41,495 bases of DNA from Candidatus Cloacimonadota bacterium (GTDB lineage: Bacteria; Cloacimonadota; Cloacimonadia; Cloacimonadales; TCS61). Positions within the stretch are counted from its first letter, which is position 1. The number at the start of each line of letters is the position of its first letter. The stretch covers positions 1-41,495 of the forward strand of contig JABGOP010000014.1 of the NCBI GenBank assembly GCA_018645365.1. The letters run 5' to 3'. Positions 8,979 to 15,511 of this stretch are shown here, in pieces. Position numbers and translations under genes: made by a program. Below the pieces are notes generated by a model. That model saw nothing but the letters and a program-made list of their open reading frames with translations, was not told where the DNA came from and ran no database searches.

Positions 8979-9935
8979 ATGTTAAAAATTAGAAAATTTG
9001 ATTTTTCAGAAAGGGATTATGAGGATTTTATCAAAATAAATGATGCAATTTGGCCAGACCAAAAAGAGACAGTTGAGCAATTAAAATTTGCTGATAAAAT
9101 TCGTGATAAAAAATCGGAACATCAGAGATTTATTGTTGAATTTGACAATTTAGTTGTTGCAAAAATGACAGTTTCAAAAGCTATTTATACAACTACAAAA
9201 GGGAAATATTACTTTAATATTGAAGTTTTACCAGAATTTCAAAGACAAGGAATTGGCACAAAACTTTATGAAAAGATGCTTGCAATCGTGATGCCGAAAA
9301 ATCTGCAAAAGTTATCAACCTATTCGCGTGAAGATAAAAAAAACGGAATTGCTTTTTTTGAAAAAAATGGATTTAAAATGGTTTTACGAGATCCTGTTTC
9401 AGAGCTTGATTTGATGAAGTTTGATTTTAGTAAATTTCAAAAAGATATTGATTTTGTAGAACAACAGAATATTAAGTTAATTCCACTTTCAGAAATTATG
9501 AAAACAGATGAAAATTGGCAACAAAAATTGTATCAACTCGATATTCAAATTGAAGCAGATATGCCAACGACAGATCCATTTAAAGCTCCGCCTTTTGAAA
9601 AATGGAAGAAAAGCCATTTAGAAAACCCACAGTTTTATCCGAAGGGTTGCATTATTGCGGTGGATAATGGCGAATTTGTTGGATTGAGTATGTTGGCAAA
9701 AGTACTTTCCGATAAAACTAAAATGGAAGTCTGGTCAACGGGCGTATTGCGAACTCATCGTCGCCGTAAAATTGCCACTGCCCTAAAAGTGTTGGCACAG
9801 CGAAAGGCGATAGGGTACGGTGCAAAAACAATTATTACCGATAATGAAGAAAATAATCCGATGTACCAAATTAACCTAAAATTAGGATTTGAACCGAAGC
9901 CAGCTTGGTTGTCATTTGAAAAGACAAATTTATAA
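8979..9935 (+). CDS. Tandem GNAT N-acetyltransferase
   Basis: This 318-residue protein carries two GNAT domains. The first (about 3-150) has VLPEFQRQGIGTKLYEKM, with the Q-x-x-G-I-G acetyl-CoA loop, and FFEKNGFK. The second (about 155-318) has VLRTHRRRKIATALKVLA, YGAKTIITDNEENNPMY and the LKLGFEP ending. The double-domain layout is like the mycothiol-synthase-type and related tandem acetyltransferases; the substrate is unknown. The ATG at 8979 was chosen over an upstream TTG because AAGGAG (8965-8970) sits 8 nt before it. It is the last gene of the permease operon. Confidence 0.82.
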   Translation: MLKIRKFDFSERDYEDFIKINDAIWPDQKETVEQLKFADKIRDKKSEHQRFIVEFDNLVVAKMTVSKAIYTTTKGKYYFNIEVLPEFQRQGIGTKLYEKMLAIVMPKNLQKLSTYSREDKKNGIAFFEKNGFKMVLRDPVSELDLMKFDFSKFQKDIDFVEQQNIKLIPLSEIMKTDENWQQKLYQLDIQIEADMPTTDPFKAPPFEKWKKSHLENPQFYPKGCIIAVDNGEFVGLSMLAKVLSDKTKMEVWSTGVLRTHRRRKIATALKVLAQRKAIGYGAKTIITDNEENNPMYQINLKLGFEPKPAWLSFEKTNL

Positions 9936-9950
9936 AAATCTTGACTCAGC

Positions 9951-10145
9951 AAGCCTCGAAATAAGTTTGTCTCAGTTGAATTAGATAATGTAACGGAAAA
10001 CGAAGCAACCCGCTTCTACCTTACGGTTTCTGCGATTGTAGAATACTTGTTAAGGTCGTGCTGAATCTCTTTTAGAAGAGAATTTGACTTGTAGCGGGTG
10101 GTATATCCACTCGTTTTTTTTATGCGCAGAAATAAGGAGGAGTTT
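9951..10145 (+). promoter_or_regulatory. infC leader with putative attenuator
   Basis: The 210 nt before infC hold no gene but much structure. GAAGC/GCTTC (10002-10006 with 10012-10016) and TCTCTT/AAGAGA hairpins lie upstream. A terminator-like stem AGCGGGTGG/CCACTCGTT (10093-10101 with 10107-10115) follows, with a 5-nt loop and 8 T (10114-10121), just 25 nt before the start codon. ACCCGCT at 10008-10014 is the exact complement of AGCGGGT at 10093-10099, so an alternative pairing would break the terminator. This is the logic of the L20 leader of Firmicutes infC-rpmI-rplT operons. No convincing -35/-10 pair was found, although TTGACT occurs near the 5' end. Confidence 0.6.
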
Positions 10146-10745
10146 ATTTCAATACGGTATCGAAGAGGTAGGGCTAGAACAAACCCAAAACCGAAAAAAG
10201 AAAGAGTTAACAGACAGATTAGCGTGAGTAGCGTTAGATTGATTTCTGAGACTGGTAAGCAAGTTGGCGTGGTTTCCACCACGGAAGCTTTGAATTTGGC
10301 AAATCGCGCAGGATTAGACTTGGTAGAAATTTCACCGAATGCTAACCCGCCAGTTTGTAAGATTTTGGATTTTGGACAATACTATTATCAGAAAGAACGA
10401 AAAATGCGTGATGCTCGTAAGCATCAACACATTGTTCAGGTAAAAGAGGTGAAATTTACACCTTCAACAGATAATCATGATTTAGAATTCAAATTGAAAC
10501 ACGCTTTGAAATTTTTGAAGCAACATCATAAAGTTAAGTTTACGATTTGGTTTAGAGGGCGACAATTGGCTCACAAAGATATTGGTCAGAACCTTTTGGA
10601 TAAAGTTTTGGAAGAATTGAAACCAATCATCGAGGTGGAGGGAAGACCAGTAAGTGCGGGCAGAACGCTTTCTATTACTGTTTCACCACATCGAGATATT
10701 GATAAACTAATCGAAGATTTTGAAAATAAAACGAAAGAGGAATAG
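10146..10745 (+). CDS. infC: Translation initiation factor IF-3 (ATT start)
   Basis: IF-3 binds the 30S subunit, prevents premature 50S joining and checks start-codon and tRNA-fMet pairing. The 199-residue product has the family landmarks NRQI...VRLI at the N-terminus, [25 protein letters not shown], and the C-terminal domain with [19 protein letters not shown] and an [10 protein letters not shown] segment. The start is taken as ATT at 10146, because AAGGAGG (10134-10140) sits 5 nt before it. The upstream ATG at 10122 abuts the terminator T run and has no SD, and a GTG at 10098 lies in the terminator stem. An AUU start is the known autoregulatory device of infC in E. coli. rpmI follows after 10 nt. 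Confidence 0.92.
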
Positions 10746-10755
10746 AGAGGTAATA

Positions 10756-10950
10756 ATGCCAAAGTTGAAGACAAGAAAAGGAGTTGCGAAAAGATTCAAA
10801 GTAACTGCTAAAGGGAAATTGAAAAGAGCTCACGCTTTTAAGGGTCACATTTTGACCAAAAAAAGCGCGAAAAGAAAACGCAATTTGCGACAAGCTGGAT
10901 TGGTTCATGCAGCTGATGAAAAACGAATGAAGAAAATGTTGGGAATGTAG
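10756..10950 (+). CDS. rpmI: 50S ribosomal protein L35
   Basis: A 64-residue, very basic protein of normal L35 length. It starts [20 protein letters not shown] and has the family's [23 protein letters not shown] segment. L35 binds 23S rRNA in the large subunit. The ATG at 10756 follows GAGAGGT; an in-frame ATG 36 nt upstream lies inside the end of infC and is not used. The gene sits in the universal infC-rpmI-rplT order. Confidence 0.97.
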
Positions 10951-10962
10951 AGGAGATTTGAT

Positions 10963-11316
10963 ATGCCAAGATCAACAAATAATGTAGCAGCAAAAAGACG
11001 CAGAAAAAAATATTTGAGAGCCGCCAAAGGTTATGTGGGCGGAAGAAGTAAACTTTATCGTACAGCCAGACAAGCAGTTGAAAAAGGTTGGTTATACGCT
11101 TACCGTGATAGACGTACCAAAAAACGTGAAATTAGAAAATTATGGATTATCCGTATCAACGCAGCAGCGAGAATGCACGAGCTTTCTTACAGCAGATTCA
11201 TTAGTGGTTTGAAAAAACTAAATGTTGAAATCAACAGAAAAGCTTTAGCTCACCTTGCATTTCACGATATGGATGCGTTCAAAGCATTCTGTGATTTAGT
11301 GAAAAACCAAAAATAA
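10963..11316 (+). CDS. rplT: 50S ribosomal protein L20
   Basis: A 117-residue L20, essential for early 50S assembly and the autorepressor of this operon in several bacteria. It shows the N-terminal basic extension ([19 protein letters not shown]), the [23 protein letters not shown] block and the [25 protein letters not shown]-terminal domain. SD GAGGAGA lies before the ATG. If the leader at 9951-10145 is an attenuator, L20 is the natural candidate for the ligand that stabilises the terminator form. Confidence 0.97.
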
Positions 11317-15058: not shown

Positions 15059-15325
15059 ATGAACTCGGTTGAAATAGAGATTTTAGGTAAGAAATATTTT
15101 TTCAAGACGGAAAATCCTGAGAAACTGAAAAAAACTGCCACATATCTCAAAGAGCAATTGGAGAAAATGAACGAGAAATACAATACTGTTGACCAGCATA
15201 AGCTGTTTGTTCTTTATGCGTTACGGTTGACGGAACAGTATTTCGAAAATGAAAATGTTAACGAAAAGTTAACGGTGGAATTAGATAACATCGCCAAATT
15301 AATGGTTGATGTAGAAATTAAATAA
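15059..15325 (+). CDS. zapA: Cell division protein ZapA
   Basis: An 88-residue ZapA. The N-terminal globular part has the family pattern VEIEILGKKYFFKTENPEKLKKTATYL, followed by a long C-terminal coiled coil with LFVLYALRLTEQYF. ZapA binds FtsZ and bundles its filaments. Two overlapping start codons are possible, GTG at 15056 and ATG at 15059; the ATG was taken. The gene directly precedes the 6S RNA candidate, the same neighbour relation as zapA-ssrS in many bacteria. Confidence 0.85.
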   Translation: MNSVEIEILGKKYFFKTENPEKLKKTATYLKEQLEKMNEKYNTVDQHKLFVLYALRLTEQYFENENVNEKLTVELDNIAKLMVDVEIK

Positions 15326-15493
15326 TTCCTGCGATATTAGTGATATTATTTTGTTTTCAGAACTAAGAAATAATCGGGAGTAGAACGGTTTGTGGCACAC
15401 CAGCCGAATGCGATTCGGACTTGTAAAATAGATTGGTGAAACACCCACTTTGAAGGTGGTTTCCGAAAACAATAATACACGGTATCGCGGGTT
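15326..15493 (+). ncRNA. ssrS: 6S RNA candidate
   Basis: The 186-nt gap between zapA and rny folds as a long, interrupted hairpin of about 168 nt. The ends pair, CCTGCGATA (15328-15336) with TATCGCGGG (15483-15491). A second stem follows, TATTATTTTGTTTTC (15344-15358) with GAAAACAATAATA (15465-15477). After a large unpaired central region comes an apical hairpin CCGAAT-GCG-ATTCGG, and a small hairpin CCAC/GTGG lies on the 3' side. This closing stem, central bubble, 3'-side hairpin and apical arm is the 6S RNA architecture, which mimics an open promoter and sequesters housekeeping RNA polymerase. Position after zapA is the classical ssrS location. A covariance-model search was not possible here. 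Confidence 0.75.
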
Positions 15494-15511
15494 ATAAACA
15501 AAGGAGAAATT

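Follow-up and report, generated by a model that had tools for sequence, protein, structure and literature searches.

The L20 leader, an RNA element preceding infC-rpmI-rplT, is reported from Firmicutes with Thermotogales as the exception, as far as the cited passages go (PMC6097659, PMC3766115), and the passages on Bacillus subtilis describe a terminator that is promoted by L20 binding (PMC10931766, PMC6097659). In the excerpted account of a deltaproteobacterial L20 r-leader, two G-C pairs and an AA dimer are said to copy 23S rRNA (PMC7247131). In Escherichia coli, by the passage cited, L20 controls translation of rpmI-rplT and not infC (PMC10931766). Here we describe a leader upstream of infC in a Candidatus Cloacimonadota bacterium, within a stretch of 41,495 nucleotides that we refer to as the window. 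We read it as an L20-responsive transcription attenuator of infC-rpmI-rplT that is related to the Firmicutes L20 leader but has diverged from it, a reading to which we give a probability of roughly 0.87.

An earlier note, made from the letters of the window, had proposed an attenuator of infC-rpmI-rplT with mutually exclusive hairpins at this site, and both its conservation and the compensatory changes seen across 55 leaders bear the proposal out. The elements of the leader and operon are as follows.

9941..9946, + strand: -35-like box TTGACT, presumed promoter of the infC operon (conserved TTGAC upstream of P1)
9991..10124, + strand: whole leader element (match to the Cloacimonadota leader model R1; the RF00558 match is 9991-10128)
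9999..10000, + strand: conserved AA ahead of P1, which may belong to the L20 site (conservation in 55 sequences)
10002..10016, + strand: hairpin P1, GAAGC / GCTTC with loop AACCC (pairing and covariation)
10008..10014, + strand: antiterminator 5' strand ACCCGCT, the P1 loop and part of the P1 3' arm (complementarity, covariation)
10018..10056, + strand: helix H2 (pairing and covariation); lower part ACCTTA 10018-10023 with TAAGGT 10051-10056, upper part 10028-10030 with 10041-10043
10093..10099, + strand: antiterminator 3' strand AGCGGGT, which is the terminator 5' arm (complementarity, covariation)
10093..10121, + strand: intrinsic terminator, stem-loop 10093-10115 and T tract 10114-10121 (terminator scan)
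10134..10140, + strand: Shine-Dalgarno sequence AAGGAGG of infC (sequence)
10146..10745, + strand: infC (IF3), presumed ATT start (Pfam IF3_N, IF3_C)
10756..10950, + strand: rpmI (L35) (Pfam Ribosomal_L35p)
10963..11316, + strand: rplT (L20), presumed regulator (Pfam Ribosomal_L20)

The terminator-like stem recognized in the earlier note was recovered by a terminator scan as 9 pairs closing a 5-nt loop, followed by a T run (TTTTTTTT, 8 T, the last at 10121); it ends 25 nt before the infC start, a distance that is valid if the start is the ATT at 10146. The exact complementarity between ACCCGCT and the 5' arm of this terminator was likewise found at the positions given there. Of 2000 dinucleotide-shuffled versions of 9951-10092, 7 contained an exact ACCCGCT, and covariation in the 55 leaders is consistent with the proposed competition with the terminator. 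P1, the terminator, and a version of H2 all appear in the fold predicted for 9951-10145, which has a stability of -52.6 kcal/mol (z -2.25; 3 of 200 shuffles equally stable).

Downstream of the leader, the gene order is infC, rpmI, rplT, and pheS, with pheT also downstream. The infC start in the window seems to be the ATT at 10146, and the GTG at 10098 that appears in a mechanical list of open reading frames lies inside the terminator. In E. coli, IF3 restricts its own synthesis through the AUU start codon of infC, which the nonstandard ATT start in the window resembles. Among 72 infC start regions, 55 have no in-frame ATG, GTG, or TTG 3 to 11 nt past the Shine-Dalgarno sequence and carry ATT, ATA, or ATC instead. 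Farther on, downstream of infC-pheT, the window contains a 6S RNA (15323-15497; 50.6 bits, over the Rfam cutoff).

To place the leader in its phylum, 59 Cloacimonadota genomes were surveyed, with infC found in 56 (the window's own genome counted); 55 infC leaders were fully readable, and the remaining contig stops within the leader. P1, H2, and the terminator are kept in all 55 full leaders of the window's order, with compensatory changes. The terminator was placed by script in 54 of the 55 and by hand in L062, and segment ends were set by hand in two. A leader model built from 19 of the 55 (R1) recovers all 55 at E ≤ 0.05. It gives one match in the window's genome (9991..10124, 107.3 bits, E 2.2e-18), a score that is not independent of the model, as L001 is one of its building sequences. 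At E ≤ 0.01, 91 of 124 genomes of the phylum have an R1 match, always a single one, adjacency to infC being confirmed for the 55 leaders and for L076-L082. Of ten further stretches, seven contain infC; the other three (L083-L085) are weak RF00558 matches from genomes in which no infC was found (G031, G026, and G047). Across the 55 sequences, one A of the AA before P1 is invariant and the other is conserved in at least 90%, and two C-G pairs of H2 never vary. No 23S match was found in the window's genome.

The earlier note had suggested a covariance analysis in related genomes, and compensatory changes in the pairing partners are indeed present. Pairs were counted on a model-fitted alignment because the first MAFFT alignment of all 55 leaders places P1 or H2 off by one base in several rows. 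The fitted alignment contains one chance antisense row of L004 and is biased towards P1 and H2 by construction; the antiterminator pairs are absent from its model. On this alignment, P1 is paired in 100% of cells, with both-side changes in three of five pairs, and H2 in 98.7% and 97.4% of cells, with both-side changes in five of nine pairs. P1 and H2 together form standard pairs in 99.0% of cells and have 8 of 14 pairs changed on both sides, a result that 0 of 500 shuffles matched on any of five measures (slid structures, 23 to 56%). The antiterminator is paired in 92.9% of cells, against 40 to 63% for slid versions. Its both-side-changed cells number 21, with 0 of 500 shuffles as high; significance is not reached by the count of pairs changed on both sides (79 of 500 shuffles as high) or by the count of pair types (132 of 500).

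We also compared partners by an alignment-free measure, the energy of the duplex that the terminator 5' arm forms with the loop and 3' arm of P1. Matched partners average -11.7 kcal/mol versus -10.0 kcal/mol when permuted over all cross pairs, and equally good permutations were obtained in 0 of 20,000 trials overall and in 2 of 20,000 within families. Compensated examples include loop CUCGC with terminator GCGAG (L029, L049) and loop UCCGC with terminator GCGGA (L014, L050, L051). Judged by sequence comparison, the attenuator is real. In L067 and L068 (family f9), loop complementarity is lost (-4.0 and -1.7 kcal/mol) and P1 and the terminator are retained; these two leaders may be controlled differently. 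In L052, L053, L058, and L059, complementarity between loop and terminator is weak in the tested register and may be shifted.

The earlier note had seen no obvious match to the Firmicutes RNA and had proposed the L20 leader model as a check. This part of its account does not stand: RF00558 (L20_leader) aligns end to end, over model positions 1-127 of 127, at 9991-10128, with a score of 37.0 bits and an E value of 1.2e-5 (permissive search of 601 bases, 9800-10400), below the curated cutoff of 58.7 bits. That cutoff is reached in 0 of the 59 Cloacimonadota genomes, and so standard annotation would miss the leader RNA; at normal thresholds, Rfam reports nothing at the window leader. Of the 59 genomes, 26 have an RF00558 match at E ≤ 1e-5, in each case directly upstream of infC (positions compared by hand); in two other phyla, 0 of 346 genomes have such a match beside infC. 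In the phylum of an Omnitrophica locus, 2 of 145 genomes have a match at this threshold, neither beside infC, and in that of an Anaerolineae locus, 0 of 201 do. The two Omnitrophica-phylum matches (L102, L103) were treated as chance because infC, rplT, and pheS are absent there. Neither R1 nor L20_leader matches at 10 infC loci of other phyla; the control genomes giving an L20_leader signal are those of Thermotoga maritima, B. subtilis, and Lactococcus lactis. Because the curated score is missed, we do not file the leader under RF00558 proper; most likely, it works like that family and is related to it.

Relatedness is the point on which the strongest rival differs. The earlier note had suggested that this may be an independent version. 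In that case, an attenuator built on the same plan would have had its own origin in Cloacimonadota, and its likeness to the Firmicutes form would reflect convergence, each of the two copying the L20 site of 23S rRNA; the mechanism would be unchanged. Such an origin would fit the missed cutoff in all 59 genomes, the lack of matches beside infC in the 346 genomes and at the 10 other loci, and the occurrence elsewhere of differently structured L20 leaders, as described in the cited passage (PMC7247131). Against it, the match spans the whole model, the P1 sequence GAAGC-ACCCGCUUC included, and the Rfam consensus allows the same alternative pairing. The full-length alignment and the confinement of infC-adjacent matches to Cloacimonadota in this comparison (26 of 59 versus 0 of 346) make an independent origin less likely than the note proposed; we consider it improbable, though still a serious competitor.

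For a diverged relative of the L20 leader, the expected course of events would be as follows. RNA polymerase would start near 9976 and make P1, H2, and then the linker. Without free L20, P1 would open, and its loop and 3' arm (ACCCGCU) would pair with the terminator 5' arm; the antiterminator so formed would allow readthrough into infC-rpmI-rplT. When L20 exceeds the capacity of 23S rRNA, it would bind the P1-H2 junction and keep P1 shut, blocking the antiterminator and freeing the terminator to yield a leader transcript of about 145 nt ending near 10121. For this leader, we infer from these comparisons which promoter is used, that L20 binds, and which way the control runs.

Predicted stabilities, compared in 48 of the 55 leaders (7 were left out), are consistent with this order of events. 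With the nascent RNA truncated just past the 5' arm of the terminator, the antiterminator equals or exceeds the P1 fold in stability in all 48 leaders; its advantage averages 5.6 kcal/mol and is only 0.3 kcal/mol in the window. In the full leader, P1 plus terminator is favored in 43 of 48 (mean, 5.5 kcal/mol), and the antiterminator is still favored in the other 5. On these figures, a ligand holding P1 closed would be expected to induce termination.

That ligand might be something other than L20. Because pheS-pheT lie downstream, with pheS directly after rplT, the switch could answer another signal, such as tRNA(Phe) or a leader peptide. We regard this as very unlikely: the window has no T-box match at the gathering threshold (and none up to E 5 in 9800-10400) and no match to amino acid leaders, no further Rfam family matched at the leader, the elements that are conserved correspond to those of L20 leaders, and informal reading of the aligned leaders revealed no conserved reading frame.

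The L20 attenuator also depends on where transcription begins, and the earlier note had held that full-length transcripts must read through the terminator, naming a start downstream of 10121 as a finding that would count against it. What is conserved lies upstream of the terminator instead: in all 52 leaders for which the sequence extends far enough, TTGAC occurs in the stretch 75 to 30 nt before P1 (52 of 52, where shuffles predict 3.5), at distances to P1 of 37 to 72 nt. Given this box, the infC operon very probably starts upstream of P1, with the terminator on the path of its transcripts, and we infer a start near 9976 in the window. A standard sigma-70 scan of the window leader gave no promoter; the pattern suggests a promoter type that differs from the plain sigma-70 consensus. 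A T-rich block often lies about 17 to 20 nt past the TTGAC box. That the stem is merely the terminator of the upstream acetyltransferase gene, which reads in the same direction and stops 66 nt short of P1, with an infC promoter between 10121 and 10146, is the least credible reading of all, for the leader goes together with infC, the longest frame upstream lies on the other strand in 21 of the 35 leaders examined (mechanical frames), and the sole conserved promoter box found is upstream of P1.

An attenuator of this kind may exist in a second form. Family f13 belongs to the same class as the window and to another order, and P1, H2, and the terminator are present in 15 of 15 leaders read (L077-L079, L087-L098). 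P1 is mostly GGAAC..GUUCC-like, and its hairpin complements the apical loop of the terminator, mostly 7 nt long, rather than the terminator arm. Examples are AACUGCUG/CAGCAGUU in L077, AACUGCG/CGCAGUU in L087, AACUGUG/CACAGUU in L091, AACGG/CCGUU in L096, CAGUGG/CCACUG in L097, and ACCGUG/CACGGU in L098. Over the 11 distinct pairs of the 15, run lengths sum to 69 versus 49.9 when permuted, and 0 of 20,000 permutations were equal. Three f13 leaders match RF00558 at 27.7 to 30.2 bits; in family f12, the leader is absent in the one genome read (L086). Our tentative view, held at somewhat less than even odds, is that Cloacimonadota hold two forms of L20 attenuator, with f13 using a loop-loop contact in place of strand exchange, so that the partner has moved along the terminator and the switch is kept. 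The f13 form would then be a natural experiment on how an attenuator changes its competing partner. Such an apical-loop arrangement is described in none of the cited passages.

Relative to the cited passages, an L20-type leader is new for Cloacimonadota, which are not among the phyla named there (PMC6097659, PMC3766115); none of the matches listed from the open-license PMC literature joins the L20 leader with Cloacimonadota. The leader is present in every fully read case of the sampled order, in an uncultured phylum, and yet falls below standard thresholds, so that ribosomal protein attenuation is probably undercounted. Its covarying loop/terminator pairing leads to direct predictions for mutants.

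Compared with E. coli L20 control, the window shares the regulator protein, and its infC and rpmI are only 10 nt apart. With the deltaproteobacterial L20 r-leader, it shares the predicted ligand, whereas scaffold and regulated gene differ as listed in the cited passage (PMC7247131); the conserved AA and two invariant C-G pairs of the window are candidate equivalents of the residues described there. From the Firmicutes L20 leader, the Cloacimonadota leader differs in its score (37.0 bits against a cutoff of 58.7) and in an H2 with its own conserved inner part, CGGUUUC / GAAUACUUGU. The two share the site before infC-rpmI-rplT, a hairpin with an ACCCG loop, a second helix, a terminator with a T tract, the alternative pairing of loop and terminator, and a covariance model match from end to end.
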